Shown: positions 18,277 to 39,534 of the stretch, piece by piece
Position numbering within the stretch: the stretch's first letter is position 1
Layout: each line of letters opens with the position of its first letter
Assembly (NCBI RefSeq): GCF_029961185.1
Contig: NZ_JASBQQ010000005.1
Location: 1 to 64,000 of the forward strand
Direction: 5' to 3'
DNA from: Albidovulum aestuarii
GTDB taxonomy: Bacteria; Pseudomonadota; Alphaproteobacteria; Rhodobacterales; Rhodobacteraceae
DNA length: 64,000 nucleotides
Notes under the pieces: model-generated
The model's database searches: none
The model's input: only the letters and a program-made list of their open reading frames with translations
Told to the model about the DNA's origin: nothing
Translations under genes and position numbers: made by a program

Positions 18277-18422
18277 AAGCGGTCATTTTGACCACTGTGC
18301 GCCCCTATCTCCACTGCTATAGACTTCGATCTACAAGACAACCCGAAGAATTGACGCACATAAGCGCCAAATCACTATCCGGTCGGTTTAGAGGCCGGAT
18401 TCGACTGAGCCAGGGAAAATGG
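18277..18422. promoter_or_regulatory. Divergent promoter region of the polysaccharide locus
   Basis: 146 bases between the start of the synthase-deacetylase fusion (minus) and the chosen start of the Tat/DUF3131 gene (plus). Both promoters must lie here or just inside the genes. An AGGGA ribosome site at about 18412 supports the plus-strand start at 18423. No clear operator symmetry was seen. Confidence 0.45.
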
Positions 18423-21712: not shown

Positions 21713-22795
21713 TTACGATTTCGTCGTCGGTACATAACGCCATAGCGGCCCTGCCGTCGTGCCGCGTCCTTTGCCCGTCAACGGTACGCGCATCAGGTGC
21801 TGTGCCTGATCCTTCAGGCTGAACATCACCGGCACGACCCGCGCAAGGGCCGGCTTGTCCCCGTTGAAGGTGGCATTCAGCCCGTCGAGGAGTTCGCTGT
21901 AACTGCGGTTGAACCGGTCGGACAACTCCTGCACCTCGGGCAGTCCTGTATAGTCCGCCGCATTCGGATCATCCTTCATCGGCCAGACCGCGGTCCAGTC
22001 AACGACAAGATCACCGCCGCTCGGTGGTTCGCCAAGACGGTCGGTCGGAAGGTAGTAGCGGCTGTGAAGGATTTCATCGAACTTGAAGAAATGCGCGATG
22101 TCCCAGCGGTCCTCGCCTTCGGGCGCGGGGATAAGGTCATTGTCGCAGGCGCGTTGCCCCAGCGCAGCCCCTTCGCCCTCATCCATGATCTCCTTGATCG
22201 CCGTGCGGGCGGTGGCGAGGTTGTGGACGGCAATCACGTCGCCTCCGGCACCGTAATAGTCGCCGGGATCGATCTGTCGGGCGGCGTCGCCGACAAAGAT
22301 CTTCTGCTCTTCGTGGTCCGCGCAGGCCTTTTCCAGCTTGCCGAGAACATAAAGGTAGAAACCGCCGATGGTTTCGTAATCTGCATGGGCATCGCTTGCA
22401 GGATCCTTCGGTGCCCGCTCGACCTCGCGGAAGCATTTGATCTGGTCGGGCGTGAAGCGGCGCAAGTGCAGTACCGGTCCTTTTCCGTCCAGAATTGGCA
22501 TCGGATAAGAGGGCAGCTGCTTGGGGTCGTTTACCACTGGCCGGCAACCGATCGCATTCATCAGATTGGCGACCAGCACCATGTGCAGCATTTCCTCGAC
22601 CATCACCTGACGGATGACCTCAATCGGTTCGGCATTGACGATCTCGGGCGAGCTTCGGTCGTATTGCCCCTGTTCCTTGATTGAATAGCAGGCAGTGGCG
22701 TAGGGCGGGATCGTTGAAAGTTCCAGCATCAGCGCCTTTTGCAACAGCGCCCCAAGCTCGGCCCGGTCGCGCTCGATGTTCTTATCTTTTGTCAT
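21713..22795 (-). CDS. Ferritin-like protein, VioB/RebD C-terminal type
   Basis: A 360-aa protein of the ferritin-like family found at the C-terminus of iminophenylpyruvate dimer synthases (VioB, RebD). Signature parts are LLQKALMLELSTIPPYATA (residues about 16-34), with a Glu iron ligand, and VEEMLHMVLVANLMNAIG (about 71-88), with Glu, Glu and His ligands. No N-terminal VioB catalytic domain is present, so it is a stand-alone ferritin-like unit, probably di-iron or iron-binding. The start overlaps the GMC oxidoreductase stop by 4 bases, so it is the last gene of a five-gene operon and probably works with that enzyme, for example on oxygen or peroxide. The substrate is unknown. Confidence 0.8.
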   Translation of the reverse strand: MTKDKNIERDRAELGALLQKALMLELSTIPPYATACYSIKEQGQYDRSSPEIVNAEPIEVIRQVMVEEMLHMVLVANLMNAIGCRPVVNDPKQLPSYPMPILDGKGPVLHLRRFTPDQIKCFREVERAPKDPASDAHADYETIGGFYLYVLGKLEKACADHEEQKIFVGDAARQIDPGDYYGAGGDVIAVHNLATARTAIKEIMDEGEGAALGQRACDNDLIPAPEGEDRWDIAHFFKFDEILHSRYYLPTDRLGEPPSGGDLVVDWTAVWPMKDDPNAADYTGLPEVQELSDRFNRSYSELLDGLNATFNGDKPALARVVPVMFSLKDQAQHLMRVPLTGKGRGTTAGPLWRYVPTTKS

Positions 22796-24771: not shown

Positions 24772-24773
24772 GA

Positions 24774-25271
24774 TCAAACCCTCCGCCGAGGCGGTTCCAT
24801 GGCCCAAGCGCCGTATCCCTGCGGCTTGGCACCCACCGGATGCGCCCCGATCGCATCCCAGACCAGCCCCTCCTTGTAGGCCCGGGTCGAGATGATCTTT
24901 GACACGTTGAACCGTGACACCCCGTATTTCCGACACCAGTCCTGCGACAGCGGCACCCATTGCCCGAGATACCAAAGCTGGATCAGAGACCGTGCCAGAG
25001 GACCAAGCCGGTCGCTTGAAAGGTAGATTCGGCGCACTTCCGAGGCACCGACCTCTGGATCGTTGGCAAACGTCTTTTCCAGCGCGACAGCATGGCTCAG
25101 AAACTCGTGAAGGATGGGCTCGGGCGTGACCTGCCGGAACTGATGCCAGTAGTCTTCGCCGCATCCGGTCGCGTGGAGCTCCGCCTTGGAATAACCGGTG
25201 AGCACCGCGCTGATGGCGGTGAATTCATCACGGTCGTTCTGCATGTCGGGGTCTGTCTTATGCCTGGTCAT
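24774..25271 (-). CDS. Sugar/sorbitol dehydrogenase small subunit (FAD-SLDH gamma type)
   Basis: A protein of about 165 aa. FAD-SLDH small-subunit features are FTAISAVLTGYSKAELH near the start, LARSLIQLWYLGQWV in the middle and AYKEGLVWDAIGAHPVG with GYGAWAMEPP at the end. In the family this subunit escorts the flavoprotein, usually through its own Tat signal. Here no signal peptide is present. Start choice: ATG at 25271 overlaps the previous gene by 14 bases; ATG at 25244 avoids overlap but has a weaker site. The absence of a Tat leader and of a cytochrome gene suggests a cytoplasmic or peripheral complex. Confidence 0.8.
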   Translation of the reverse strand: MTRHKTDPDMQNDRDEFTAISAVLTGYSKAELHATGCGEDYWHQFRQVTPEPILHEFLSHAVALEKTFANDPEVGASEVRRIYLSSDRLGPLARSLIQLWYLGQWVPLSQDWCRKYGVSRFNVSKIISTRAYKEGLVWDAIGAHPVGAKPQGYGAWAMEPPRRRV

Positions 25272-26205
25272 CGTGCCGGTCCCGATCAATGGCGTCCATG
25301 TAGAATCCGCGCGGCTCGATACAGGCGGGTGGGCTTTCGAAGATCTGCACGGCGGCTGGCTGCATGTCCGAGAATAATGCCCGCATGTCCTTCGTCATGG
25401 CAAAGTCGTTGTCGCCGATCTCCAGCCTGATCTTTCTGGCCTGCGCGGGCGACAGCATCACCGTGTCGAAAAGCCCGACAATGGTCCATCGTGTCCAGAT
25501 AGTCCGGCCAAGTCCGGTCGCGAATTCGGGGATCGGCGTGCAGTTGGTCTTGGTCCAGTTGTAGCCGGTGAAGTCCGAGCGTAGGCGATAGACGAATGTA
25601 TCCGGATCATCGGGGTTGATCAGTTCGATCCGCCAGGCCTGCTTGGTTGTCGGCGGCTCCTGCGCGGTCATCGCCGCGTTCAGCGACGGGACCACATAGT
25701 TGAAGACGCCATAGAATTTGGGCTCACCGAACACGGCGCGGCCCGCCTCGACGGCCACCCTGTTGTCGGCCGCCACATGCAGGCGCAAATGGCCGATGGT
25801 CTTGGTCTGGTCGCGTCCGTAGAGATATTCCCAAAGCGGCATCTTCGGAACACCGCCCTTGCGGTTGGCGGGATAGGCGAGCAGGTTGAACTCGACCTCG
25901 TTGGTGGTGCCCAGCGAATTGTCGTAATGGGCGGTGTACCTTTGAAAATTGAGCAGGATGACCGCCCGCTCTTCGGTTTTGCCGCTCTCCGTCTCGACCG
26001 GAAAGCGCGCGACGCAGAGGCCGGTATTTTCGACATAACGCTCGGCCTGTTCGATTGAGGTGTACCAGTACATCCACTGACATTGCAGCGATGCGTACAT
26101 GAAGGGGAATGTGTCGAACTTTTTCGGCAGTTCGGGCATCACGCCACTGGCCGGCACCTGTTCACAGCACGATTCCCGCGCCGTTTTCTTTGGCTTTTTC
26201 GTCAT
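25258..26205 (-). CDS. Acetoacetate-decarboxylase-like protein
   Basis: A 315-aa protein. The ATG at 26205 is 5 bases after a CGGAGGGG ribosome site. The central block RAVFGEPKFYGVFNYVV resembles the GxRxxGEPKxx region of the acetoacetate decarboxylase fold, and NEVEFNLLAYPANRKGGVPKMPLWEYLYG fits its first half. A CC pair near the N-terminus (ESCCEQ) is unusual. The Schiff-base Lys of true decarboxylases could correspond to K in GEPK, but this is not certain. It lies in one operon with the flavoprotein complex, which suggests a role on a related keto-acid or lactone. Assignment is by motif only. Confidence 0.6.
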   Translation of the reverse strand: MTKKPKKTARESCCEQVPASGVMPELPKKFDTFPFMYASLQCQWMYWYTSIEQAERYVENTGLCVARFPVETESGKTEERAVILLNFQRYTAHYDNSLGTTNEVEFNLLAYPANRKGGVPKMPLWEYLYGRDQTKTIGHLRLHVAADNRVAVEAGRAVFGEPKFYGVFNYVVPSLNAAMTAQEPPTTKQAWRIELINPDDPDTFVYRLRSDFTGYNWTKTNCTPIPEFATGLGRTIWTRWTIVGLFDTVMLSPAQARKIRLEIGDNDFAMTKDMRALFSDMQPAAVQIFESPPACIEPRGFYMDAIDRDRHDDQA

Positions 26206-26284
26206 TGTCCCCTCCGGTTTATCGTTCGGTCGCGGCCGTCTCCAAATTCGTCCCTTATGTCGGTCCTTTGTATTCGTTTGCCGT

Positions 26285-29200
26285 TCAGCTTTCGGCGGTT
26301 TCGGCCTTGCTGTCCGCTTTTGCATATTGCCGGGCACTGTCCTCGGCGCGGCGCTGATGCCCGGGCATGCCCATGTCGCGCGCCATGTCGATTGCCTGCC
26401 GGAACCGGGCCGCACCCTCCGCCTTGTCGCCCAGCGCCATGGCGATCTCACCGTCAAGCCGGACCAGTTCAGGCGCCCAGAATGCCTCGCCGCTTTCCTC
26501 TTCGAATCGTTGGGCCTCGGCGACCAAATCCCTGGCTTGCCGCGCCTGACCAAGCGACATCGCGACATCGGCATGGAGATACCGGAAATAGCTGAGCCCG
26601 AGCCGTGATGCGGTGCTACGCCATTCCCCCAGACCCTGTTCGATCATCTCCAACGCCTTTTCGCCCAGTTCCGCGCGGCGTGCCCAGCTGTTCATCACGC
26701 GCCCCCAGCCAAGCCAGAAATGGAAGGCGTTCTTTTCGGAAAGCGTGATCAGCCGGGCCGAGCTTTGCCGCACCGCATCTTCATCGCCAAGGAACTGGTA
26801 GATCCAGCTTGCGAAGGCCAATGAAAAGGAAAGCGTGAACGGATGTTCGGTCTCAGGTGCCAGTTCCAGCGCCTTCTCGATGGCCGACAGCGCGTCCTCG
26901 TCGCGACCGCAGAGCCAGTAGCTCCACGCGGCATAGGCATGGATCGCGACGCCAAGATCGACAACGTCGAAATTCAGACCGCGACGCCGGTCCTCAAGGC
27001 TCAGCTTGACGTCCATCCCCTTTTGCAGAACCTCCAGCGCTTCCGCCGGTCTGCCGAGATAGGTGAGCACCGATCCGAGCGAGCGGTAGGTCACTGCCGT
27101 GATAACCGGATCGGCGCTCGCGTCCAGCATCGACCCAAGCTGCTCGGCATTCTCCAGGGCCTCCGCGTATTCGCCGCCGATCATGGAAGAGCGGAACTGC
27201 CCGTAGACGACCTTGAACAACCGGTCCAGTTCGCCGTAGCGGGTGCACAATTCGCGCGCCCGGGCATAGGCACCGCGCACCGATGGATGCGCATAGCCGT
27301 TCACGAAGGCGAAGGGCACCGCGATCATGATCTGAAGATCCATTTCCCTGCGGTCGCGTTCCTCCGTTTCGGGCAGATGTGCCAGGCTGGACAAGGCGAA
27401 CTGAAGATGTTCGATCGCTTCGGGATTGGCCGACCGTTCCGTCGCGACACTCGCGGCCGCGCGCCAGTATCCCTCGGCGATCAGGTGGTCACCGGCGAGC
27501 ATGAAGTGATGGCCCAGCAATTCGGGCTCGGTCTTCGCGGTTTCGGGATAAAGATTTTCCAGTACGGCCGCGATGCGTCCATGCCACTTTGCGCGCGAGG
27601 TGCGCAGCATCGACTGATAGGCCGCTTCCTGCACCAGCGCATGGCGGAACTGGAAGACGGCTTCCTCATCCATCCCGCCGACGGGCACGATCAGATCCGC
27701 ATCGATGAGCTTTGCCAGCGCATCGTCGACCGTGCGTTCCTCACCGGCGTGAACGCGGCACAGGATGGTGCGGTCGAATGTCCGTCCGATGGTCGAGGCA
27801 ATCTGGGCCACTTGCCGGACTTCCGTCAGCCGGTCGAGGCGGGACATCAGGGAATCCTGCAGCGATGCCGGTATCGCCAGCGAGAGATCGCCCTTGAATG
27901 TCTCACCCCCGGCCAGAAGCCCGCTTTCGATGACCATCTTGGTCAGTTCTTCGATGAACAGCGGCACGCCATCGGTGCGCAGCACGATCTGTTTAAGGAT
28001 CGGTTCGGGCGGGCGGACTTGCGCAATGTTCTCGATCAAAGCGATGGTCTCACGCCGCCCGAGACGGTTCAGTTCCAGCGCGGTGACATGCGCCAGGTTT
28101 TTCCAGGGGGATACGAATTCAGGCCGCGCGGTGATCAGCAACAGGCAGCGCTGCCGTTGCAGCAGGCTTATCCAGCGGGACACGAATTCAAGCGTGGAGG
28201 GGTCGATCCAATGCGCGTCGTCGATCACCATCAAGAGCGGCTTTTGGTCCGACATTGCGCCGCAGACCTGAATCATCGCGTTGATGGCCTCCAGCTTCTC
28301 CTGCTCAGGGTGCGATGTGGCGGAGAGACCCGCGAAATCCTCTCCGAAACCGAGAAGGTTGGCGATCGGGGGCGCCACGAAGGATTGATCAACATCCAAC
28401 CCGTCCAGAAAAAGATGGAGTTTGCGGCGCTTCACCTCATCCGTGTCGGACTTGGAGAGGTTGAGCAAAACGCCGAATGCTTCTTTGGCCGAATAGAAGG
28501 GGCTGTTCTTGTGAATGACCGATCCGAACAGGACCAGCCGGTTTGCCTCGCCGTCGGGCAACTCCTGGTCGAGCGAAAAGATGATGCGGGATTTGCCAAT
28601 TCCGGCCTCGCCGGTGACGAGCATCACCTGTCCGTCCCCCTCCTGCGCTTCTTCCCAGCGGGTTGAAACGAGGGCGATTTCGGCTTTGCGGCCGATGACC
28701 GGGGTCGCCGGGCGGGCCTGCTGGCGCCGGGCGATGTCTGTAGCGCTGCTGGGGCGCATAGCCTGATACAGTTCCATCGGGTCCCTTACCCCATGCAGGG
28801 TCTGAGGCCCGAGCGATCTGAACATCAGTTGCGCACCGGCCAGCCGCCGGGTTGCGGCCGAGGTGACGACCTGTCCGGCCGCAGCGAAGGCCTGTATCCT
28901 TGCGGCGATATTGGGGGTGTCGCCAAAGAGCGACATCTTCTCAATATGGTCGCCCGAACCGGTCTGGCCCACGACTACGGAACCGGTGTGCAGCCCCACC
29001 CTGACTTGGGTGGAAAGGTCGAGACGCGGAAAAAACCCCGCAATCGCGGGTGCCGCCTCGGCAATTTCCAGCGCGGCCAATACCGCAGCATATGCACTTC
29101 CTTCATGCGCTACCGGGTAGCCGAAGTACACGACCACGCCATCGCCGACGAAATTCGCGACATGTCCGTTATATTGTTCGACGATTCCGGTGACTACGGC

Positions 29201-29536
29201 CCGGTAATGGGCGATCAGTTCCCGGTAATCTTCAGGGTCCAGCGCCTCGGATATGGCGGTTGAACCGACCAGATCGCTGAACAAAACGGTAAGCTGCCTC
29301 CGTTCAGCCGTCTGCTCTGGGTCATCTTTAGTTCTGTCTTGTGGAGCTCTAATTTGCGGGGGAGCGGGCTGCGCGGCGGAATTGCTGGCAACGGACGTCC
29401 CGCAATTCACGCAGAACTTGGCATTCGGGCTGATCTCCGACCGGCATTCGGGGCAACGCGGGGCGATGGATGTGCCGCATTCCTGGCAGAACTTGGCCCG
29501 TTCGGGATTCTGTGTGTCGCAGTTCGGGCAACGCAC
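26285..29536 (-). CDS. Zinc-ribbon / class III nucleotide cyclase / AAA ATPase / TPR regulator
   Basis: A 1083-aa protein. A GTG start at 29536 was chosen because AGGAGG (complement of 29544-29549) lies 7 bases upstream and it opens directly on the zinc ribbons (CPNC, CQEC, CPEC, CVNC; residues 3-45). A class III cyclase domain follows (about 82-262) with metal Asp88 (LFSDLVG) and Asp132 (VGDGVVVYFG) and the Asn and Arg of NIAARIQ. The usual substrate Lys is Asn128 (HVANFVGD). Then come an AAA/STAND domain (Walker A GEAGIGKS, 309-316; Walker B LLMVIDDAHW) and TPR repeats to the end. It heads the redox operon and probably senses a signal through the TPRs. Confidence 0.85.
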   Translation of the reverse strand: MRCPNCDTQNPERAKFCQECGTSIAPRCPECRSEISPNAKFCVNCGTSVASNSAAQPAPPQIRAPQDRTKDDPEQTAERRQLTVLFSDLVGSTAISEALDPEDYRELIAHYRAVVTGIVEQYNGHVANFVGDGVVVYFGYPVAHEGSAYAAVLAALEIAEAAPAIAGFFPRLDLSTQVRVGLHTGSVVVGQTGSGDHIEKMSLFGDTPNIAARIQAFAAAGQVVTSAATRRLAGAQLMFRSLGPQTLHGVRDPMELYQAMRPSSATDIARRQQARPATPVIGRKAEIALVSTRWEEAQEGDGQVMLVTGEAGIGKSRIIFSLDQELPDGEANRLVLFGSVIHKNSPFYSAKEAFGVLLNLSKSDTDEVKRRKLHLFLDGLDVDQSFVAPPIANLLGFGEDFAGLSATSHPEQEKLEAINAMIQVCGAMSDQKPLLMVIDDAHWIDPSTLEFVSRWISLLQRQRCLLLITARPEFVSPWKNLAHVTALELNRLGRRETIALIENIAQVRPPEPILKQIVLRTDGVPLFIEELTKMVIESGLLAGGETFKGDLSLAIPASLQDSLMSRLDRLTEVRQVAQIASTIGRTFDRTILCRVHAGEERTVDDALAKLIDADLIVPVGGMDEEAVFQFRHALVQEAAYQSMLRTSRAKWHGRIAAVLENLYPETAKTEPELLGHHFMLAGDHLIAEGYWRAAASVATERSANPEAIEHLQFALSSLAHLPETEERDRREMDLQIMIAVPFAFVNGYAHPSVRGAYARARELCTRYGELDRLFKVVYGQFRSSMIGGEYAEALENAEQLGSMLDASADPVITAVTYRSLGSVLTYLGRPAEALEVLQKGMDVKLSLEDRRRGLNFDVVDLGVAIHAYAAWSYWLCGRDEDALSAIEKALELAPETEHPFTLSFSLAFASWIYQFLGDEDAVRQSSARLITLSEKNAFHFWLGWGRVMNSWARRAELGEKALEMIEQGLGEWRSTASRLGLSYFRYLHADVAMSLGQARQARDLVAEAQRFEEESGEAFWAPELVRLDGEIAMALGDKAEGAARFRQAIDMARDMGMPGHQRRAEDSARQYAKADSKAETAES

Positions 29537-29846
29537 AATTCTGCCTCCTGCAAATCGGGCGGCCATTAAAACAGGGAGTTGGTTTCCCAAAAGCCGCATG
29601 CCGCAAATGTCATTTGTATAGGTACAAGATGTTCCCGGAAAACGCTACGTGGAATTAAGGGATTCATCGGGAAATTGAGGCGCTTGCGATGTGGTTCCGC
29701 AGCATGGGCAATCAACCTGCCTGCCGGGATGCATTTCCGGACGACAATGCTTATAAAAAACAACCAATGGTAGAATTATTTATTCGTTTGTGACCCCATT
29801 CGATATTGCGCAATCGGTGCGGGCGCATTCAATTGAGTAGGCCAAC
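29537..29846. promoter_or_regulatory. Upstream region of the cyclase-redox operon
   Basis: 310 bases between the cyclase gene start and the end of the next minus-strand gene. It holds the AGGAGG ribosome site (29544-29549) that fixes the GTG start at 29536 and presumably the operon promoter. It also includes an AT-rich patch at about 29750-29790. No gene was found here. Confidence 0.45.
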
Positions 29847-30560
29847 TTATACAGCGGCAGCCTCTCTCAACAATGAAATATTCGCGTTCGCGGCAACGAG
29901 TTTCGCGCTCGTATCACGCATCAGACATTGCTGCATGCACAGCCCAAGTTCCGCTTCTGCTGCGGCCAGGGCACGAAGTTTCTCCGCATCCGCCTCAAAG
30001 ATACGGGCAGGGCTGACGGTCGTCAGCGTTGCAGAGGCAGGTGCGCCGGTGAAACAGGTTACTTCGCCAACGAATTCCCCGTTGGCGCAGTTTCCGATCG
30101 AGTGTCCGTTAATCGACGCATTTGCTGTGCCGGTTGCCAGATAATAGAGCTTGCCAATCACTTTGCCTTCAGTGGCCAGCACATGGCCAGCGCCGACATC
30201 GCGCCATACGCCGGTGTCAAGGAAGCGCCGTGCGTTCATGGCGGAAAGCTCGGGAAACTTGCGCGTCAGAAGCTCTTTTTCCTCGTTGTTGAACCGCGTC
30301 TTGCGCCAGAGGAGATAGGTGCGCGTAAGCCCAACGATGCTGATAATGATCCAGCTGATCTGTATGATCGCCGACCACAGGTTGAAACTCGCAATCAGCG
30401 AAATCAGAACCAATACGGCCGCCAACAAATTCATCACCGTATAGGGGTAGCGGGACCCTCTCAGCAGACCGAACTGCAAACCCGCATAGGCACCGAGATA
30501 GAGAGCAACCCCCAAAAAGCCGCAGACTTCGAAAAAACCATCCCAGACTGCATAATTCAT
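29847..30560 (-). CDS. Membrane protein with CBU_0592-like helices and a CNB domain (A)
   Basis: A 237-aa protein. Three predicted helices (about residues 9-83; ALYLGAYAGLQFGLL, VMNLLAAVLVLISLI, SWIIISIVGLTR) resemble the small CBU_0592-type membrane domain. A cyclic-nucleotide-binding fold follows (about 105-230; YYLATGTANASI, then GEFVGEVTCFTGAPASATL). The phosphate-binding cassette keeps GE but has Ala where the conserved Arg should be (P-A-S-A-T). It is a paralogue of the gene at 31768 (same layout, GAYxGLQxGxLxG, TPARIF) and faces a divergent CNB gene. The role may be to relay a cyclic nucleotide signal to the membrane, or nucleotide binding may be lost. Confidence 0.75.
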   Translation of the reverse strand: MNYAVWDGFFEVCGFLGVALYLGAYAGLQFGLLRGSRYPYTVMNLLAAVLVLISLIASFNLWSAIIQISWIIISIVGLTRTYLLWRKTRFNNEEKELLTRKFPELSAMNARRFLDTGVWRDVGAGHVLATEGKVIGKLYYLATGTANASINGHSIGNCANGEFVGEVTCFTGAPASATLTTVSPARIFEADAEKLRALAAAEAELGLCMQQCLMRDTSAKLVAANANISLLREAAAV

Positions 30561-30827
30561 ACACGTTTCTCCACAATCTGCGTGATGGTTTAATCTCTTT
30601 TCTAAGGAGCGATGAGTAGGCCGAGCTATCCGGCGTGGGGTTTGGACCGTCAGAAGCCGCTTTGCCCAGATACTCGCGCGTGACCTTGTCAGTCGTGATA
30701 GGCTCCTCGGCGACTACTCACAACTATTTTCTTATGCCTGACACAACTCCCAGAATAGCGTAGCTCAGGCCGCCGATTGGGGCTACGTTCGGGATCGACT
30801 ACACGAGACAGTCATGTTGGGAAATGA
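30561..30827. promoter_or_regulatory. Divergent promoter region between two CNB genes
   Basis: 267 bases between two divergent genes for membrane CNB proteins. Both promoters must lie here. No strong operator symmetry was noticed. Confidence 0.4.
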
Positions 30828-31559
30828 ATGGCAGGACTAGCTCTATCTGACTTACTGGTGCTTTCTGCCGCCGGCATGTTTGTTCTGGGGTATTTGATCA
30901 TCAATCAGGTGATACTCCGACTCATGCTTCTGTTCGGAACTGCGCTTTACATCTGTTACTATGCAGTCGTTGATACCTCGCCTCTTTGGCCGGCGATTTG
31001 GGCCAGCATGGCTACCGGTACTGCGAATCTGATCGGCCTTATGGCGCTGATCTATCGACGTTCACCCTGGGCGGTCCCAAAGATGTACCGCGATGTTTAC
31101 CCTCGTTTCCAAATGCTGCCGCCTGGCGATTTTCGAAAACTTGTGAAGGTCGCAGAACGGTCGACACGGCCTGCGGGATATCCGCTTACCGTTGGGGGCC
31201 AACCCGTATCTACGCTCTACTACATTATTGATGGCGCGGTGAGGTTGGAGAAGTTCGGAGAGAGTTTCGATATTCCGGATGCCGTTTTTGTGGGTGAGGT
31301 TGGCTACCTGACAAATCGTCGAGCCTCTGCTTCGACTGTTCTGACGAAAGAGAGCGACGTTCTGGAATGGGACGTAGATTTATTGAAGCAGCGCTCAAAG
31401 CGCGACCCTCGGTTTCGATTGGCTATCGACGCGGTGATCTCACTGGATCTGGCTGGGAAAGTTGCCCGCGCGGGATCTCCTGTACAGCGGCGTAATAGTT
31501 CCGTGTCCGCCTCTACAGACGCAGAGGAACACTCAGTTACGACTTGGGCTGGACCGTAA
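30828..31559 (+). CDS. Popeye-like membrane protein with a CNB domain (B)
   Basis: A 243-aa protein. Three helices (about residues 6-85) are followed by RDVYPRFQMLPPGDFRKLVK, the helix and linker pattern of Popeye-type proteins. A CNB fold (about 125-225) comes next, with LYYIIDGAVRLEKFG and FVGEVGYLTNRRASASTV. GE is kept, but the residue aligned with the conserved Arg is Ala. A polar C-terminal tail (QRRNSSVSASTDAEEH) is unstructured. It is divergent from gene A and convergent with gene C. It probably anchors or senses a cyclic nucleotide or another small ligand. Confidence 0.7.
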   Translation: MAGLALSDLLVLSAAGMFVLGYLIINQVILRLMLLFGTALYICYYAVVDTSPLWPAIWASMATGTANLIGLMALIYRRSPWAVPKMYRDVYPRFQMLPPGDFRKLVKVAERSTRPAGYPLTVGGQPVSTLYYIIDGAVRLEKFGESFDIPDAVFVGEVGYLTNRRASASTVLTKESDVLEWDVDLLKQRSKRDPRFRLAIDAVISLDLAGKVARAGSPVQRRNSSVSASTDAEEHSVTTWAGP

Positions 31560-31767
31560 AGCCAAATCAAAAGGGATTCGGGCGCAACATGGTCACCCAA
31601 ACCGCTTCTCACCGTTGAAGTTCATAGGTCATGGTAACCGTTTGACCAACCACCGATCTTTCAAGCCGTCGGACCAGATCACGGTCGGTAGCATTCTGTA
31701 TCTTCGGCGACAGGTAACTTGATCAACAGTCAGAGACGGACCGTGCCGATCGACTTGGCAATGGGCT

Positions 31768-32484
31768 TCACTCTCCCAGAGCTGTCGATAAGCGAGATGA
31801 TGTTTCCGCAAGTTTCAAGCGCAAATCGCCTGCAATCGAGCGCTCCAAATCCGCCAACGCTTCTGGATTGCGCTGCAAAAAACGTAAAAGACCTTCGCGC
31901 TCGATCACAAATATACGCGCTGGGGTCACTGTGCGCACAGTTGCCGTCGCAGGTTCGCCACTGGAAAGCGTAAGTTCGCCCACCAACGCGCCGGCGGTAA
32001 TTGTGGCAATGTGCCGGCCACCTCTTTCGATATGGCATACCCCATTCATGATCATCGACAACGCGGCGATGGGCTGGCCTTGCGTCGTCAGGATCATACC
32101 TTCATCGGCATCCAGAAAACGTCCGATGTTTAGAAACTTGCGCGCGCGGTCCTTTTTAAGAGAGGGCACAATGCGTCGCACGACCTCCGCCTGCTCATCT
32201 GTCAGTTTAATAAATCGATGTACGATATAGATCCTGGACATGCCGATCACACTGATGACGGACCAACAGATCTCGATTGTCACTGAGAATGGGTTGTAGT
32301 CGCGCGTGAGGCTGATCAGAACGGCAAGCGAAGACACAAGATTGATGGCCGGAAAGATATACCCGTCACCTTTCAGAACGCCGATTTGCAGGCCGAAATA
32401 TGCACCAACATATCCGAGTACGCCCATTGTCCCAACAACATCGAGCAGATCTACTTCGGCCCACCAATGAGATAAGCCAAGCAT
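31768..32484 (-). CDS. Membrane protein with CBU_0592-like helices and a CNB domain (C)
   Basis: A 238-aa protein. The start was moved to 32484, because the strong ribosome site GGGAGG (complement of 32494-32499) lies 9 bases before this ATG, while the longer frame's ATG at 32493 touches it. The layout matches gene A: MGVLGYVGAYFGLQIGVLKG, AVLISLTRDY and WSVISVIGMSR helices (about 8-85), then a CNB domain (about 110-225) with GALVGELTLSSGEPATATV. GE is kept and the conserved Arg is again Ala (P-A-T-A-T). It has clearly diverged from gene A, so the two copies are old paralogues, not a recent duplication. Confidence 0.75.
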   Translation of the reverse strand: MLGLSHWWAEVDLLDVVGTMGVLGYVGAYFGLQIGVLKGDGYIFPAINLVSSLAVLISLTRDYNPFSVTIEICWSVISVIGMSRIYIVHRFIKLTDEQAEVVRRIVPSLKKDRARKFLNIGRFLDADEGMILTTQGQPIAALSMIMNGVCHIERGGRHIATITAGALVGELTLSSGEPATATVRTVTPARIFVIEREGLLRFLQRNPEALADLERSIAGDLRLKLAETSSRLSTALGE

Positions 32485-32493
32485 GCTAAACAT

Positions 32494-32499
32494 CCTCCC
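32494..32499 (-). promoter_or_regulatory. Ribosome binding site that fixes the start of CNB gene C
   Basis: CCTCCC on the plus strand, that is GGGAGG on the transcript. It is 9 bases before the ATG at 32484 and directly adjoins the ATG at 32493, which argues for the shorter protein. Confidence 0.6.
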
Positions 32500-32534
32500 G
32501 ATACAGAGCTAACTCTCTAGACCCGCTGCAGTCT

Positions 32535-32549
32535 GAACAACTCTTGTTC
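32535..32549. promoter_or_regulatory. Palindrome GAACAA-CTC-TTGTTC upstream of CNB gene C
   Basis: A perfect 6-bp inverted repeat with a 3-base spacer, about 45 bases before the gene C start. The size and position fit an operator. No regulator is identified. Confidence 0.3.
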
Positions 32550-32700
32550 GGGTCGACGAGAATCAGCCCCTCGCGCAGATATCAGTCATTTGGGCGGTAG
32601 CTGCAGGTATACACCAAGCATTCTTTATTGATAGCTGGATTAAGCAGGTGTTCGGCGGCGAAAACCTCTGGTGCCAAAGTTACGCTGTGGTCTAATACGC

Positions 32701-34887
32701 CTAGTCCGATAGCATCCTGAACAGTTCCGTCATTCGCATCAGGCGCCGGGCAAGGTATCCTGCGGCAAGACGGTGCAGATCCGCTGCGGCAGCCCGACCG
32801 TCCAGACTGTTAGGTATCCGGTCGAGGTCGATCTTCAGCACCTCTGCATCCGCGTCCGCTAACACCCCTGCCGTACGCGGCACACCTGCATAATAGGCAA
32901 TCTCCCCGACAAGGGCACCCGGAACAAATCGTGCAACAACGAGTTTCCGACCATCATCGCCGGCGATCTCGGCGCGAAGCTGACCAGCAAGAAGCTGGTA
33001 GATCGCTGTCGACTCGCTGCCTTCTGACACCAGAGTCATGCCTTGCTTCAGTTTCAGTCTCTCGGAAAATTCTGAGGTGTCGAGCGTCGGGTAGTCAGCA
33101 CAAAGACTATTCAGAACGCCATCAACGGCTTCATCCAATTTGTCCTGACCAAGTTGCCTGGTCTCGATTTCCAGAAGTGCGTCGTCGAGTGTCCGATAAA
33201 GCGATGCATCAATGTGGTGACCTGCGGTCTCAAGCCGTCCGGAAATCTTGTCTGAGAGTCCGGACAGAAAGAACTCCGCGCGATTCCGATCGCACAACTC
33301 TCCGATCCGGTAGAAGGAGAAGGCCGCCGACGAGTCTACGCCGGTGACCCGTGACAGGTCGAACACCACGTATCTTGGCGGGTCCTCATGTTCGAACTCG
33401 ATACGCAGACTATCGAGCAGCCTGCTTGCCGTTCCAAAGAACAAGAAACCCCCAAGCTCGAATATTCGAGTTTCTCTTCCTTTCCTTCCAAGAAAAGCAA
33501 GTTCGTCATGACCACGCTCTACCGAGGACCGGCGCAACGCCCCGCTGGATCTTAGTCGCACGACGTCGATCCCGGCATATGACACAATGAACATGATGGC
33601 GGCTGCGAACAGTCCCACAACCAGCGCCTCAAGAAATCCAACTCCAGCCGCGGTAACAAGTATGACGCCGATGATGGCCATGTCGCCGGCCGGAAGGCGG
33701 CGGCGTTGAACCCAAAGCCAGTCATACAGCAGGTCGATCCCGAGAAAGGCGATGACACTTGCCGCAAGTCCGACCGGCAATGCGCCTATGACCGAGGCAC
33801 CGAAGAACAGGGTAAGGGCAGAGGCGACGGCTACGGTCCACCCCGCCAGCGGCCCGACTAGCCCCATTCTGTTCGCCAGCAAGGTTTCACCCAGAAGGTG
33901 GTATCCGACCAAACCGCCGGTGGCTCCTGCCGCCACGTTCGCCACACCGGTGGATTTCAGATCGTGTTCAAAATCGAGTTCTTTTCCAAGTGCAACTTCA
34001 ATGGCGCTCGCGTTGAGAAGCAGGCCGACGACTGCGACTGCTGCGATGGCAATGACCGTCGCTGACTGCTTTAGGATGAGTGCCCAGTCCGCCAGCAAGG
34101 GAATCTCGAGTGACAAGCCCCGGAGAAAATAGTTGGACTCAAAAGGACCAAGAAGCAGACCCTTCTCCGCAGCTTCCGAAAGATTGAGGCCGATTAGCCA
34201 GAGTGCGATGTAAAACCCGGCCAAGCCAACAAAGAGAATGGCCGGTAGCACAAAACTGGACCGCGATAGCCGGACAGCGACAACGGCCAACACGCTAAAG
34301 ACAATCCATGGTACCCAGCGAACCATGGCGTCGGACTCAAAAAGACGCTGAACGTTCCAGACCGTGATACTGTCCTTCATCAGCATGGAGAGCGAGCCCG
34401 TGACAAGCAGAAATCCCGTCGCCGCAAGCAAGCCGCCGATCACCGAATAGGGGATGAACCGTGCGATCGCACCGAGCCGAAAATACCCGGCGACGTAGAA
34501 AGTTACACCGCTCAATAACGTCGATACACCAATGAAGGTTGCCACGGTCGCAAAGGTGGAATTCGATGCCGCCGACGCAGATGCCCCGGCAATCGCCGCG
34601 GCCGCGCCAGCCATCAGGATGGTAGGAACATCCTGCGCATGACATATAGAGCCGCGGTAGGATGCTGTCTGCGCCACAATCACGGGCATCGCGATGGACC
34701 CGAGAAGGGCGAGTCCGATACCCTTAGAAAGATGAACCGTGAGTGGCCCAGCATAGACGAACGCAGCAAACGATATTGCGAACGAAACACTGAGCGCCGC
34801 AAGGACGAATGCCGCCACGAGAGTGCTCGCGGCGCTGGAAAGCGACCGGGAAGAGCGCACGTCCCTTTCTATGGTGAGCCGACTCAA
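32701..34887 (-). CDS. SulP-type anion transporter with STAS and CNB domains
   Basis: A 728-aa protein. About ten membrane helices (residues about 15-415) include the SulP-type segments VSFAISFAAFVYAGPL, GLVGYHLLGETLLANRMG and ALPVGLAASVIAFLGIDLLYD. A STAS domain follows (about 465-560; RYVVFDLSRVTGVDSSAAFSF). The C-terminal CNB domain (about 600-720) has GALVGEIAYYAGVPRTAG, that is an intact phosphate cassette with GE and Arg (PRTA). The open frame begins with TTG at 34887, without a strong ribosome site. Transport of an anion gated by cAMP or cGMP is the natural reading. It is the only CNB protein of the island with a fully canonical cassette. Confidence 0.88.
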   Translation of the reverse strand: MSRLTIERDVRSSRSLSSAASTLVAAFVLAALSVSFAISFAAFVYAGPLTVHLSKGIGLALLGSIAMPVIVAQTASYRGSICHAQDVPTILMAGAAAAIAGASASAASNSTFATVATFIGVSTLLSGVTFYVAGYFRLGAIARFIPYSVIGGLLAATGFLLVTGSLSMLMKDSITVWNVQRLFESDAMVRWVPWIVFSVLAVVAVRLSRSSFVLPAILFVGLAGFYIALWLIGLNLSEAAEKGLLLGPFESNYFLRGLSLEIPLLADWALILKQSATVIAIAAVAVVGLLLNASAIEVALGKELDFEHDLKSTGVANVAAGATGGLVGYHLLGETLLANRMGLVGPLAGWTVAVASALTLFFGASVIGALPVGLAASVIAFLGIDLLYDWLWVQRRRLPAGDMAIIGVILVTAAGVGFLEALVVGLFAAAIMFIVSYAGIDVVRLRSSGALRRSSVERGHDELAFLGRKGRETRIFELGGFLFFGTASRLLDSLRIEFEHEDPPRYVVFDLSRVTGVDSSAAFSFYRIGELCDRNRAEFFLSGLSDKISGRLETAGHHIDASLYRTLDDALLEIETRQLGQDKLDEAVDGVLNSLCADYPTLDTSEFSERLKLKQGMTLVSEGSESTAIYQLLAGQLRAEIAGDDGRKLVVARFVPGALVGEIAYYAGVPRTAGVLADADAEVLKIDLDRIPNSLDGRAAAADLHRLAAGYLARRLMRMTELFRMLSD

Positions 34888-35186
34888 GCCAAGTCTCGTC
34901 TCTGCCGGGCAATAACGAGCCTTGCTTGCTGATGCTGAGACACCAGGACCGTGTCAAGAAGGATGTAATGTTGCAACGCGCCAAAAACCTTGAATCTTCC
35001 CGATGTCTAAACGGCGGCATCCGTTTGGAATTTCATCGAAGCATTGTCTGACATCGACGTATTAAACCGATCTGCCCGGTCCGGCGCAACTCTGATTGTT
35101 TGCCCGCATGACCGTATTTCTCTTTTTATTTGAAGGCCATTTGTGCTACCGCTGGTAAGTTCATGATTACTCTGGGGGGGTTGGTT
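34888..35186. promoter_or_regulatory. Divergent region between the SulP-CNB and FecR genes
   Basis: 299 bases holding both promoters. A G-rich ribosome site (GGGGGGG, 35174-35180) precedes the ATG at 35187. No symmetric operator was noticed. Confidence 0.45.
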
Positions 35187-36023
35187 ATGAAGTTGCTTTC
35201 GCTTGTTTTCGGCGCTTTTTTTGGTTTTTCTGTTTTGGTTCCTTGCCCGGTATTAGCTCAGTCGGGTGAAGTCGTAAAAGTTACTCAACCGGCGATAATT
35301 GTTCGGGATGGCCAGCGAACCCAGCTAGAGTTGGGTGATGCTGTCAATGTTGGCGAAACCATCGTTACGGGCGGCAGCGCCGAGGCCCAGATCGTTTTTT
35401 CCGATCAGACCAGAATTGTCGTCGGACCGAACTCGCAATTGCGGGTAGATACGCTTTTGTTTAACTCAAACTCATCGGCCAAACGCTTCGCGGTTACTGC
35501 AGCCAAGGGGACGTTCAGATTTCTCAGTGGCAAGAGCCCGAGTAAGGCCTATTCGGTCCGCACACCAATTGCGACGATGGGTGTGCGCGGAACGGCGTTC
35601 GATTTCGCAGTTCCGGCAAAAGACTACACTGATCTGGTGGTCCATGACGGCGAGGTTCGCTTTTGCCGACAGGGCGTTTCCACATGTGCGAGCGTACCGA
35701 GTGGATGCCAGACCGTGCGCATGCAGAAGAAGCTGTTGACGCAGCCTGCGACGAATGCGGATCGTCAGAAGGTCCTCGGCGAGGCCTTTCCATATGCTAT
35801 CGATCAGAGTTCGCTAAGGAATGACTTTCATACTGCAATCGAGAGCTGCAAAGGGCGCGGCGCCACGGCGTTGAGGCAGATCAACCTTCCCTCGATCGCT
35901 TCGAGGCAACTGCAACGGGATGATCCTAAACGACGTGCAGCCAATGTGAGGCCAGAGGAGCCCCGCGAGGAGGACGAAAGACCAGAGGAACCCGACGAAC
36001 GTGAAGATGATTTGCTGGAATGA
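35187..36023 (+). CDS. FecR-domain exported protein
   Basis: A 278-aa protein. The start at 35187 follows a G-rich site and opens a clear Sec signal (MKLLSLVFGAFFGFSVLVPC, cut after VLA-Q). The FecR domain (about residues 30-160) shows VNVGETIVTGGSAEAQIVFSD, VGPNSQLRVD and TPIATMGVRGTAFDF, the last typical of FecR-type peptidoglycan/LPS-linked proteins. The C-terminus is strongly charged (EEPREEDERPEEPDE). The CHASE2 cyclase gene follows after 59 bases. FecR-CHASE2 cyclase pairs are common in proteobacteria, with FecR likely the periplasmic partner or sensor. It is not a TonB-siderophore regulator; no sigma factor is near. Confidence 0.85.
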   Translation: MKLLSLVFGAFFGFSVLVPCPVLAQSGEVVKVTQPAIIVRDGQRTQLELGDAVNVGETIVTGGSAEAQIVFSDQTRIVVGPNSQLRVDTLLFNSNSSAKRFAVTAAKGTFRFLSGKSPSKAYSVRTPIATMGVRGTAFDFAVPAKDYTDLVVHDGEVRFCRQGVSTCASVPSGCQTVRMQKKLLTQPATNADRQKVLGEAFPYAIDQSSLRNDFHTAIESCKGRGATALRQINLPSIASRQLQRDDPKRRAANVRPEEPREEDERPEEPDEREDDLLE

Positions 36024-36082
36024 TCTGAGCGTATTCCGGTGCTGAGCAGGGGTTTCGGCGCTGTTTCGACCGAGGTCTTTTG

Positions 36083-38272
36083 ATGGCGCGTCGTCGATAC
36101 CGTGTTGTTTACGCCCTCATGGCGCTTGGATTCGTTGGGTTTCTCGCGGCGATACGGATTTCGGATCCTGCACCGATGGTTGCCTTGCGCGAGGCATATT
36201 TCGACCAACTTCAGCAACTTCGCCCCAGACAGGCGGTCGATCTTCCGGTGCGCGTCATCGATGTTGATGAGGCGTCATTGTCCCGGTTGGGGCAATGGCC
36301 CTGGCCCCGGCATGTATTGGCAAGGTTAAACGAAAGACTGGCCGAACTGGGAGCGGCCGTCGTCGTTTATGATGTCCTTTTCGCAGAGACTGACAGGCTT
36401 TCCATATCGCGCTTGCTGGACGACCCAATCGTGGCAGACGCGCTTGCCGGTGTGGATGGAGTGACCGCAATCGAGCAACTGGATTTTGACCAGATGTTTG
36501 CCGGGTCAATGAGCCGACTTCCCGTGGTCCTTGGCGTTTCGCATGCAGGCGGTAGCGGTCAGCGCGCACAAGATGCCAAGGCGGGGTTTGTTCAGGTTGG
36601 AGGCGGGGTCGATGGTGTTCCGGTGCTTCCGACAGTTACAGGGATTGTTCCGGTACTTTATGATGCCGCGACCGGCCTAGGCAGCATCAATGTAAGTCCG
36701 TCGGGGTCGGGCGGAGTGGTCCGCGAGGTTCCCCTGATCTGGAAAACCGAAAGCGGATTTCTTCCCAGTCTCGCGGTTGAAGCCCTGCGCATCGCGCTGC
36801 AGGAAAGCACTTTCATTCTTCAGAGCGATCCGTCTGACATCGGTTTGTCGGGAATTCGGATCGGCGCCTACAATGTGCCAACCAATGAACAGGGGCAGTT
36901 CCGGGTTCACTACCGGCCCGACACGTCCGACCTGTATGTATCAGCATATAAAGTGCTCGACCGCGATCACGACCAAGAGACGAGACAATGGCTTGAAGGC
37001 AGCATCGTGTTCGTCGGCACCTCGGCGGCGGGCCTTCTGGATATACGCAGGACCGCGCTTTCGGAAAGCATTCCCGGCGTTTCCATCCACGCGCAGATCG
37101 TCGAACAGATCCTTCTTGAACACTATCTGACGCGAACAACGGTTCAGGACACTATCGAAGTCGCGCTTTTTGCGACGACCTGCCTGCTGGTTTTTCTTGC
37201 GTTGATTTTATTTGGACCAGTGATCTCGGTAATTTTGGGTGGAATTGCCGGCGCGGCCACGTTTGCTCTTTCCTGGCAACTTTATGCGGTCAATGGCATC
37301 CTCCTAGACGCAACCTTTCCGGCTCTTGGTGGCTTTCTTGTTTTCACCGCTCTGACGGCATTTCAGTTCATCGTAATTGATCGTGAAAAGCGAATGATCC
37401 GTGGCTCATTCTCGAAATACGTGTCACCAACGATCTTGAGCGAGATTGAGAAAAAAGGTCACGAGCTCAAGCTTGGCGGCGACATGCGCGATGTGCTGGT
37501 CATGTTTTCTGATATTCGTGAATTCACTCCGTTGAGTGAATCCGTTTCAGCGGAGGATCTTGTCGTATTGCTGAACGACCTGTTTTCAGAATTAACTGAC
37601 GAAATTCTGGCAGAGAGCGGCACAATCGACAAATACATTGGCGACTCGATAATGGCCTTCTGGAACGCGCCGGTGCCAGTGGAAAACTATCACTCGCGGG
37701 CCTGCAACGCTGCGCTGAGGATGCGTGCAAAACTGGCGGCATTCTCGGACAAACGGGACCGCGTGGGTCAACGTCAAATCCGCATGGCAACCGGTCTTGC
37801 ATCCGGGTCGGCATGCGTCGGTAACATGGGCTCAAGGGACAGATACAATTACTCGGTCATCGGCGCAGTCGTGAACGAAGCGGCGCGCATCGAAACCGCG
37901 TGTCGGGAAGTCGGCTATGATATTGTCGTGACCAAGGCGGTTGCCGATCATGCCAGGGGACTGGCGCTGCTGGAAGCCGGAGAACTCGACCTTAAGGGAG
38001 TGTCGCAACGAATGCCGGCGTTTCTGGTGGTCGGTGACGCCAGCATGTCAATGTCCGACAGCTTTCGGGCATTGGACGGTGCACATAAAAGTCTTGTTGC
38101 GGCGGTTCGTAACGGTGCGGACATTGTATCCAGTCTTTCAGAATGCCGGGACCTTTGTATGCGGGTAGACCCAGCTCTGCTGGACTTCTACAGCCGGATC
38201 GAAACTCGACGCTCAAACTTCCTGCCGGACCCGGGCAGGCGGCCTGAAGATCGCCCCGGCGTGGCGCAATAG
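36083..38272 (+). CDS. CHASE2-domain class III adenylate/guanylate cyclase
   Basis: A 729-aa protein. One N-terminal helix is followed by an extracytoplasmic CHASE2 sensor domain (about residues 30-340; VRVIDVDEASLSRLGQWPW is typical), three helices (about 350-440) and a class III cyclase domain (about 455-650). Key residues are Asp in MFSDIREFT, the base-recognising Lys in TIDKYIGDS with a metal Asp, and Asn/Arg in VNEAARIE. The second base-recognition position is Ser (NYSVIG), as in class IIIb enzymes, which often have Thr or Ser there. It should make cAMP (or cGMP) in response to a periplasmic signal, and is the obvious source for the nearby CNB proteins. Confidence 0.92.
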   Translation: MARRRYRVVYALMALGFVGFLAAIRISDPAPMVALREAYFDQLQQLRPRQAVDLPVRVIDVDEASLSRLGQWPWPRHVLARLNERLAELGAAVVVYDVLFAETDRLSISRLLDDPIVADALAGVDGVTAIEQLDFDQMFAGSMSRLPVVLGVSHAGGSGQRAQDAKAGFVQVGGGVDGVPVLPTVTGIVPVLYDAATGLGSINVSPSGSGGVVREVPLIWKTESGFLPSLAVEALRIALQESTFILQSDPSDIGLSGIRIGAYNVPTNEQGQFRVHYRPDTSDLYVSAYKVLDRDHDQETRQWLEGSIVFVGTSAAGLLDIRRTALSESIPGVSIHAQIVEQILLEHYLTRTTVQDTIEVALFATTCLLVFLALILFGPVISVILGGIAGAATFALSWQLYAVNGILLDATFPALGGFLVFTALTAFQFIVIDREKRMIRGSFSKYVSPTILSEIEKKGHELKLGGDMRDVLVMFSDIREFTPLSESVSAEDLVVLLNDLFSELTDEILAESGTIDKYIGDSIMAFWNAPVPVENYHSRACNAALRMRAKLAAFSDKRDRVGQRQIRMATGLASGSACVGNMGSRDRYNYSVIGAVVNEAARIETACREVGYDIVVTKAVADHARGLALLEAGELDLKGVSQRMPAFLVVGDASMSMSDSFRALDGAHKSLVAAVRNGADIVSSLSECRDLCMRVDPALLDFYSRIETRRSNFLPDPGRRPEDRPGVAQ

Positions 38273-38330
38273 GCTTCGGATTGACATGAGAAGTTGATGG
38301 CTGACAGTTCAGCCGAACGAGAGGAGTCTG

Positions 38331-38960
38331 GTGGTGATTTGGATTGAATTACTCGGATGGATTGCCGCCGGATTCACGATTGCCGCCTATTCAATGCGAA
38401 CCATGCTGCCCCTGCGTGTGGCCGCGATCTTCGCCAATGTTTTCTTCATTGCTTACGGTGGACTTGCCGGTGTTTACCCCAATCTGGCTCTTCATCTGCT
38501 GTTGTTGCCTTTCAACATTTTCCGGCTGGTGGAGATTCTGCGGGTAACCAGGCGCATACGCGCGGCAAGGAAGGCCGATATTGATTTCGACTGGCTGACG
38601 CAGCTGGTCTCGCCGCGAAGATTCGCCGACAAGGAGATCCTGTTCCGCAAAGGCGATCGACCCGACAATCTCTACTATGTAGTTTCTGGCACTATCCGAT
38701 TGTCCGAAGCCGATATTGTCCTGGGCGCCGGCGAGTTTCTGGGCGAAATCGCGTTTTTCACTGACGCCAAAGAGCGAACATTGACTGCTGTCTGCGATGG
38801 TCCTTGCGAGGTCGTGCCAATCGACGAGTCCACGTTCATGCGACTTTACTATCAGAACCCCGCCTTTGGCATGTATATCGTGCGCCTGATCTCGCGAAGA
38901 CTCCTTCAGGGCATGCGTGAAATGCCGCAAGTCTATGGCCCTGTTGTCAAAAATGTCTAA
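38331..38960 (+). CDS. Small membrane protein with a CNB domain (D)
   Basis: A 209-aa protein. Three helices (about residues 3-70; LLGWIAAGFTIAAYSM, VAAIFANVFFIAYGG, LHLLLLPFNIF) lead to a CNB fold (about 95-195) with LYYVVSGTIRLSEAD and GEFLGEIAFFTDAKERTLTA. With one extra residue in the loop, the Arg of ERT aligns with the conserved cassette Arg, so nucleotide binding may be kept. GTG start at 38331, 58 bases after the cyclase gene stop on the same strand, so they probably form one operon: the messenger-making enzyme beside a likely receptor. The layout is most like gene B. Confidence 0.78.
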   Translation: MVIWIELLGWIAAGFTIAAYSMRTMLPLRVAAIFANVFFIAYGGLAGVYPNLALHLLLLPFNIFRLVEILRVTRRIRAARKADIDFDWLTQLVSPRRFADKEILFRKGDRPDNLYYVVSGTIRLSEADIVLGAGEFLGEIAFFTDAKERTLTAVCDGPCEVVPIDESTFMRLYYQNPAFGMYIVRLISRRLLQGMREMPQVYGPVVKNV

Positions 38961-39092
38961 AAACAGGCCCGGAGCAGCCGGACGCGACCGCAGCGAAGCG
39001 ACGACAATTAATTAGAATTTATTCCGGCCTGTAGATAAGATCAAAAAAAAGGGGATAACTTGGTTTGAAAAAGCCGTACTTTTACGCACGGG

Positions 39093-39479
39093 GTGAATGT
39101 GAGCGATGAGATCAGTTGGGTGCTCCGCCTAGCGGTGCTCCTACAATTCAAGCACCTTTTAGCGGATTTCATGCTTCAGAATGCATACATTCTGAACAAT
39201 CGCAGCAAGTGGGGCCATCCTGGTGGCATTTTACATGCTGCAATACATGTTGTCGGCTCGCTGATAGTACTGGCTGTCATGGCCGTTCCGGCCCAGTACA
39301 TTGTCCGCCTTTTGATTTTCGAGGGTTTCGTTCACTACCACATCGACTGGATCAAGGATAACGTCGGCAAACGATACAATCTCACACCCGACAATCGTTC
39401 GTTCTGGGTGTTGACGGGGTTGGATCAGTACATGCATCAACTGACATATGTCGCAATGATTATCTATTGTGTAAGCTGA
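39093..39479 (+). CDS. DUF3307 membrane protein
   Basis: A 128-aa membrane protein of the DUF3307 family. Evidence is the HLLADFMLQ motif (residues about 21-29), HPGGILHAAIHVVGSL, HYHIDWIKDN and the closing DQYMHQLTYVAMIIY. Several His/Asp residues lie near the membrane, as is usual in the family. Function is unknown; homologues often lie near SatD-like regulators, which are absent here. The start is GTG at 39093, with an alternative GTG at 39099. It stands between the cyclase/CNB operon and a decayed IS6 copy. Confidence 0.75.
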   Translation: MNVSDEISWVLRLAVLLQFKHLLADFMLQNAYILNNRSKWGHPGGILHAAIHVVGSLIVLAVMAVPAQYIVRLLIFEGFVHYHIDWIKDNVGKRYNLTPDNRSFWVLTGLDQYMHQLTYVAMIIYCVS

Positions 39480-39534
39480 GCGGCCACGGCCCAAGTATCT
39501 GTATAGATCGTTCGTTCTGCTCTCCGTCGAAAGC

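Follow-up and report, generated by a model that had tools for sequence, protein, structure and literature searches.

Two class III cyclases and five cyclic-nucleotide-binding membrane proteins, among them a POPDC-like receptor candidate, in a gene island of Albidovulum aestuarii

The DNA considered here (64,000 nucleotides of Albidovulum aestuarii, Rhodobacterales; assembly GCF_029961185.1, contig NZ_JASBQQ010000005.1, positions 1 to 64,000; 'the window') contains an island of nine proteins, at 26285-39479, in which two class III cyclases and five membrane proteins with a cyclic-nucleotide-binding domain (CNB, binding a cyclic nucleoside monophosphate, cNMP) are encoded within approximately 13 kb. 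The recurrence of this set, in rearranged form, in other genera suggests a membrane-bound second-messenger circuit. A sequence-only reading of the window had named the two cyclases, four small CNB proteins (A to D) and a SulP transporter with STAS and CNB domains, all of which were recovered as open frames with the corresponding Pfam domains; it had overlooked a FecR-domain gene, a DUF3307 gene and the resemblance of CNB protein B to the Popeye domain-containing (POPDC) family.

Gene content of the island

The nine genes, with their principal profile matches (E-values where given), are as follows:

26285-29599, - strand: zinc ribbon-class III cyclase-AAA_16-TPR protein (PF12773, an N-terminal double zinc ribbon; PF00211, 7e-22; PF13191; TPR)
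29847-30560, - strand: CNB protein A, three-helix CBU_0592-type membrane domain and CNB (NF047864, 2e-24; PF00027, 2e-11)
30828-31559, + strand: CNB protein B, POPDC-like membrane domain and CNB (PF04831, 5e-6, 27.1 bits, residues 14-212)
31768-32493, - strand: CNB protein C, A-type paralogue (NF047864, 3e-22; PF00027, 8e-12)
32701-34887, - strand: SulP anion transporter with STAS and C-terminal CNB (PF00916, 7e-19; PF01740; PF00027, 9e-13)
35130-36023, + strand: FecR-domain protein with signal-like hydrophobic N-terminus (PF04773, 1.7e-14)
36080-38272, + strand: CHASE2 class III cyclase (PF05226, 7e-50; PF00211, 2e-17)
38331-38960, + strand: CNB protein D, a short membrane protein (PF00027, 7e-16)
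39093-39479, + strand: small DUF3307 protein, a recurrent companion (PF11750, 1.5e-11)

The last four genes may form a single operon, since they share the + strand and are separated by gaps of only 56 bases (FecR to CHASE2 cyclase), 58 bases (CHASE2 cyclase to D, the spacing reported earlier) and 132 bases (D to DUF3307). SulP together with C, and A together with the zinc-ribbon cyclase, lie on the - strand; between these pairs, B is the sole gene on the + strand. The earlier count of five CNB proteins is borne out by profile for four of them (A, C, D and SulP exceed the PF00027 cut-off); B falls below it (20.9 versus 27.5 bits), although its CNB part is modelled at a predicted local distance difference test score (pLDDT) of approximately 88-96.

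The island holds a large share of the relevant genes of its host. In the 4.24 Mb genome there are two matches to PF00211 (E <= 1e-5), both inside the island, and the same is true of a congener (genome G106; genomes and loci carry our own G and L labels) and its own island. Five of the 13 PF00027 matches of the host genome are likewise in the island (B among these, under the cut-off), as are four of its five A-, B- or D-type genes. In the congener the order of the genes is that of the window minus C, which was not found there; C is a diverged A-type paralogue positioned between B and SulP. Apart from C, the two islands are 87-98% identical, and the ratio of nonsynonymous to synonymous substitution (dN/dS) is 0.04-0.24 across the eight genes that they have in common (0.13 for the zinc-ribbon cyclase), which are thus under purifying selection.

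Recurrent linkage of CNB proteins and cyclases

A model of the CNB membrane proteins matches 55 of 196 Rhodobacterales genomes, in 27 of 87 genera; in three of these genomes (G092, G134 and G078) the match is partial, to the CNB domain only, and was not counted as a locus. Linkage was evaluated in the 47 matching genomes with complete cyclase lists, 45 of which hold loci (G002, G078, G103, G107, G112, G121, G128 and G160 being left out). A class III cyclase lies within 10 kb at 24 of 69 CNB loci (88 genes), where uniform placement predicts 1.09 and none of 20,000 random draws exceeded 6. When the host genus (G000 and G106) is removed, 22 of 65 loci remain linked, in eight genera, against an expectation of 1.04 and a maximum of 8 in 20,000 draws. 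Counted on a shorter listing of cyclases, the linked loci number at least 11 of 79, and at least 9 of 75 outside the host genus. The sequence-only reading had proposed linkage in relatives as the test of its idea, and what recurs there is a series of rearranged subsets of the island:

L114-L116, L125, L126, L130, L131, L134 and L140 (nine loci, three genera): FecR, CHASE2 cyclase, A and B
L129: A-cyclase-B
L101 (uncultured Marivita): B-SulP-A-cyclase
L104 (Maliponia): B-SulP
L105 (Yoonia litorea): B-D-cyclase
L106: short cyclase frame-D-B
L132: D-CHASE2 cyclase-FecR-DUF3307-SulP, with A-like fragments
L137: CHASE2 cyclase-DUF3307-SulP-A
L138: SulP-cyclase-interrupted A-DUF3307
L141: CHASE2 cyclase-FecR-DUF3307-D

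Among 17 named B loci, which come from a scan of genome contigs that reached near relatives of B only, five carry a clear further part of the island in the flanks covered (L097, in the host genus, and L101, L104, L105 and L106; L105 and L135 are taken as one locus). At L102 the neighboring frame matches only the STAS-CNB part of SulP, and was not counted as a SulP.

Two simple explanations of the island were rejected. Chance clustering is ruled out by the position of both PF00211 matches of the host within the island, together with the excess of CNB-cyclase linkage over random placement; a single old inherited gene order is ruled out as a full account because gene sets and orientations differ across genera.

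The companion genes display related patterns. A match to the CHASE2 cyclase at E <= 1e-60 is found in 12 of 61 genomes (the host included). The FecR gene adjoins it in L057, L059, L114-L116 and others and is one gene away in L064, and no FecR was recognised at L058; the FecR protein is probably the periplasmic partner of this cyclase. Outside the host and G106, no island-type CNB protein was recognised near the CHASE2 cyclase at L057, L058, L059 or L064.

The SulP of the window is a divergent member, scoring 74 bits where the TIGR00815 cut-off is 380. Six divergent SulP matches whose frames span 736-822 amino acids, picked by hand and including two from the host genus, all lie 2.7-7.7 kb from a cyclase, and those at L132, L137, L138 and L142 match the window protein across core, STAS and CNB domains (the check for a CNB domain covered SulPs of this divergent, window-like kind).

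DUF3307 genes with short frames (less than 200 amino acids) have a listed class III cyclase no more than 10 kb away in at least 9 of 18 cases (0.87 expected), and outside the host genus in at least 7 of 16 (0.85 expected), a count from which the 240-amino-acid frame of G191 was left out; among the matches listed, none of the 22 long-frame DUF3307 genes is so placed. Short DUF3307 genes occur less than 6 kb from class III cyclases even at G103:C56, G128:C33, G112:C1 and G031:C19, where no CNB membrane match was found within 10 kb.

The DNA around the island was also surveyed. The G+C content (GC) is 54.4% at 29600-39500, compared with 59.6% for the remainder of the window, and the gene order shared with G106 breaks to the right of the DUF3307 gene; the segment may have been acquired. 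To the left of the island (21713-26574) lie genes for a ferritin-like protein and a GMC oxidoreductase and an unassigned frame of 438 amino acids, in an order kept in G106. Farther away (14896-20813) is a divergent pair, encoding a polysaccharide deacetylase-glycosyltransferase fusion (1126 amino acids) and a DUF3131 protein (841 amino acids), which are perhaps exopolysaccharide genes.

Catalytic residues of the cyclases

For the class III fold we take the functional residues to be two metal-binding aspartates, an asparagine and an arginine that stabilize the transition state, and a lysine and an aspartate that specify adenine. Motif alignment reveals both metal aspartates and the asparagine/arginine pair in both cyclases, as expected of class III members, and the canonical lysine and aspartate pair is complete in neither: the CHASE2 cyclase retains the lysine and has an alanine at the adenine-position aspartate, and the zinc-ribbon cyclase has an asparagine in place of the substrate-position lysine. 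These departures concern the substrate rather than membership of the class, and the product, as predicted from these residues, may be cAMP, cGMP or another cNMP.

The arrangement of cyclase, AAA and TPR domains in the zinc-ribbon enzyme recalls that of the bicarbonate-sensing soluble cyclase. The SulP family includes bicarbonate carriers, and a bicarbonate loop that passes through cyclase and SulP is offered here as a guess.

Two kinds of putative CNB receptor

The CNB proteins divide according to their phosphate-binding cassette (PBC), which was aligned for 78 full-length distinct proteins, near relatives included (19 of 97 hits were dropped, being longer than 420 amino acids or not spanning the model), and typed as A or B by best phmmer score. 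The cassette of D reads GEIAFFTDAKERTLT, with glutamate and arginine both kept, as they are in all eight D-type proteins (window D included); that of SulP, VGEIAYYAGVPRTAG, likewise keeps the two residues. The cassette of A reads FVGEVTCFTGAPASATL, and A- and B-type cassettes as a group read FVGE...ASAT or SSAT: the arginine is present in none of 70 such proteins (30 of A type, 40 of B type), being replaced by alanine, serine or threonine, and the glutamate is present in 68, with glycine in the other two. These two, the B-type proteins L018 and L019, thus lack the glutamate as well (FLGG...), and their pocket must therefore differ further. To judge from sequence, A, B and C belong to a family of CNB proteins that have a three-helix membrane domain and lack the PBC arginine.

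In a tree of these proteins, B forms one clade (support 0.88), and A forms one group only if L123, which joins neither and whose PBC alignment is doubtful, is excluded. As read by eye, 19 A proteins occupy one part of the tree and, with the exception of L060, have a cyclase in the same locus; for the 10 A proteins in the other part, no cyclase was recognised in the same locus.

The AlphaFold model of A (pLDDT 81.4) contains helices at residues 3-29, 38-54 and 61-88, a CNB barrel and a long C-helix (203-236). In the model of B the membrane part (pLDDT approximately 58-67) is a single merged helix, which does not establish three helices for that protein. The best 50 Foldseek matches of A include CNG/HCN, MloK1, PycTIR and CRP domains, and those of B include HCN, MloK1 and CRP domains.

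Resemblance to the POPDC family

B matches the Pfam profile PF04831 (POPDC1-3) one bit below its cut-off of 28.1; no match was found for A, C or D. At E <= 0.001 this profile matches 15 of 196 Rhodobacterales genomes (once in each, with six matches over the cut-off) and none of 14 control genomes, and every one of the 14 matches outside the window is to an A- or B-type gene. The composition of membrane helices can mislead such scores, but the remaining membrane proteins of these genomes give no match at that threshold, which argues against an effect of composition alone. Across the phylum the profile matches four of 398 genomes, in each case in a gene for a three-helix CNB protein and in the class to which the window belongs; at E <= 0.01 it matches 14 of 18 aligned members (15 of B type and three of A type). 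The trimmed L016 protein, about one-third identical to B, scores 39.8 bits, of which its membrane part alone accounts for 26.7, indicating that the signal resides mostly in the membrane helices.

The predicted structure of A has the layout of a POPDC protein (three transmembrane helices, CNB fold and C-terminal helix). The DSPE and FQVT motifs are absent from the bacterial PBCs. Searches against solved structures found no POPDC or Popeye molecule among the 19 matches for B or the best 60 of 168 for the profile, and Foldseek found none among the best 50 for either model; the best solved-structure matches were CNB domains of CNG/HCN channels, MloK1, CRP and protein kinases. B is thus POPDC-like by sequence and is not filed as a POPDC protein.

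In the POPDC reviews consulted, the family goes back to early animals and has members in some protozoa; CRP is named as its closest relative in bacteria, and an independent origin is spoken of in one review (PMC6562197, PMC5872366, PMC4918794, PMC4973886, PMC6952887). POPDC1-POPDC2 heteromers form through the C-helix (PMC9830914), and POPDC1 scaffolds adenylyl cyclase 9 and the potassium channel TREK-1 (PMC9724675). No mention of bacterial POPDC-like membrane proteins was found in the excerpts of open-licence POPDC literature, and the membership of PF04831 may already include bacterial sequences. As a tentative proposal, which we consider possible but less than probable, the POPDC family would predate animals and protists, with bacterial POPDC-like proteins, often in A-B pairs, beside class III cyclases; the cyclase, POPDC heteromer and ion-transport protein of animals would then continue, or re-invent, a module of bacteria whose arginine-less PBC senses a cyclic nucleotide and serves as scaffold for a transporter.

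A proposed membrane-bound circuit and its alternatives

With moderate confidence, we interpret the island as a modular, cyclase-coupled membrane second-messenger circuit with POPDC-like receptors. In such a circuit, a periplasmic signal read by the FecR protein and the CHASE2 domain would set the CHASE2 cyclase, a cytoplasmic signal would be read by the zinc-ribbon/AAA/TPR cyclase, and both enzymes would release a cyclic nucleotide beside the membrane. That nucleotide would be read by the canonical CNB receptors (D and the C-terminus of SulP) and also by the arginine-less, POPDC-like set of A, B and C; A and B would probably pair through their C-terminal helices, tying cyclase to target, for which the SulP transporter is the best candidate. 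The local membrane circuit put forward by the sequence-only reading thereby gains from the recurrent linkage and from the metal aspartates kept in both cyclases; it loses ground on the isolated CNB genes and the genomes devoid of cyclases described below.

Several observations weigh against this circuit. One genus supplies seven of the 14 loci outside the host genus that hold at least two CNB genes, and these loci are therefore not independent; at 11 of the 17 named B loci the flanks, some of which are short, contain nothing else of the island; and three divergent SulP matches, whose frames of 624-638 amino acids are too short to carry a CNB domain, are not near CNB loci. Since each cyclase of the window has one unusual substrate-position residue, cAMP as a product is not assured, and the missing arginine could mean that A, B and C bind no cyclic nucleotide at all.

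The last of these points leads to an alternative that we regard as doubtful, and yet as the strongest of those considered, in which A, B and C are apo-scaffolds or bind another ligand and the nucleotide is read only by D and SulP. The uniform loss of the PBC arginine favors it, as does the lack of any PF00211 match in eight of the 55 genomes with CNB matches (G025, G026, G053, G061, G074, G095, G134 and G140; in G134 the sole CNB match is a partial one), where the CNB proteins must respond to a different signal or to a ligand from another source. The near-constant PBC glutamate and the well-modelled CNB part argue in the other direction, and animal POPDC1, also without a canonical PBC, is reported to bind cAMP with a half-maximal inhibitory concentration (IC50) of 118 nM (PMC5872366).

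It is less likely still that the CNB membrane proteins read a cell-wide pool of cyclic nucleotide and perform separate tasks, the linkage being a product of co-regulation or joint transfer. Such a pool would accommodate the 42 of 51 single-gene CNB loci outside the host genus that lack a cyclase within 10 kb (nine have one), the low GC of the island (as acquired DNA may show) and the fact that its genes run in more than one direction. However, 13 of the 14 multi-gene loci outside the host genus do have a cyclase within that distance, and with the only two class III cyclase matches of the host genome both in the island there is little pool from which a local signal would have to be separated.

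Finally, a Pycsar-type anti-phage system with the CNB proteins as membrane-disrupting effectors is highly improbable: PADLOC models for PycC match both cyclase domains (best 6e-27), those for TIR effectors match the CNB domain in each of A, C, D and SulP, and PycTM is itself a membrane effector (PMC11224242), but these matches span only the shared cyclase and CNB domains (with none for B), a Pfam scan of the island proteins found no TIR domain, the cyclases are joined to CHASE2 or AAA-TPR parts, and the receptors number five, with a transporter among them.

The presence in bacteria of cyclase-adjacent, membrane-plus-CNB proteins without the PBC arginine allows the origin and working of POPDC proteins to be tested in simple organisms. 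Bacterial cAMP is mostly discussed in terms of transcription factors; if the membrane circuit exists, its sensor cyclases, together with a transporter and several receptors in the membrane, would constitute a non-transcriptional, membrane-local branch of cyclic-nucleotide signaling.

Comparison with known systems

The island shares a cyclase and CNB-domain receptors with Pycsar, and differs from it in its sensor parts, in how many receptors it has, in its transporter and in its domain make-up. Its transporter has the SulP core and STAS domain of SulP/BicA transporters, from which it is set apart by its divergence and by a C-terminal CNB domain with a canonical PBC. The membrane domain of A and C is that of the CBU_0592 family (NF047864); that model covers 72 positions of the membrane part only, whereas A and C join it to a CNB domain.

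A cluster of Campylobacterota, as described in an excerpt, comprises a CHASE2 adenylate cyclase, FecR, phosphodiesterase and TPR proteins (PMC9239204), and resembles the island in placing a CHASE2 cyclase beside a FecR-domain protein. Neither membrane CNB receptors nor a SulP are named in that excerpt and, unlike the Campylobacterota cluster, the nine island proteins include no phosphodiesterase domain (Pfam scan). In the excerpts searched, no description was found of a FecR-CHASE2 cyclase pair with adjoining membrane CNB receptors and a transporter.

The closest functional parallel drawn here is with POPDC1-POPDC2, adenylyl cyclase 9 and TREK-1 of the animal heart. The bacterial proteins lack DSPE and FQVT, their PBC keeps the GE residues, their candidate target is a SulP rather than a potassium channel, and any complex among them is putative. 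What the two have in common is a protein with three helices and a CNB fold without the canonical PBC arginine, present as two co-occurring paralogues that are accompanied by a class III cyclase and a protein for ion transport.

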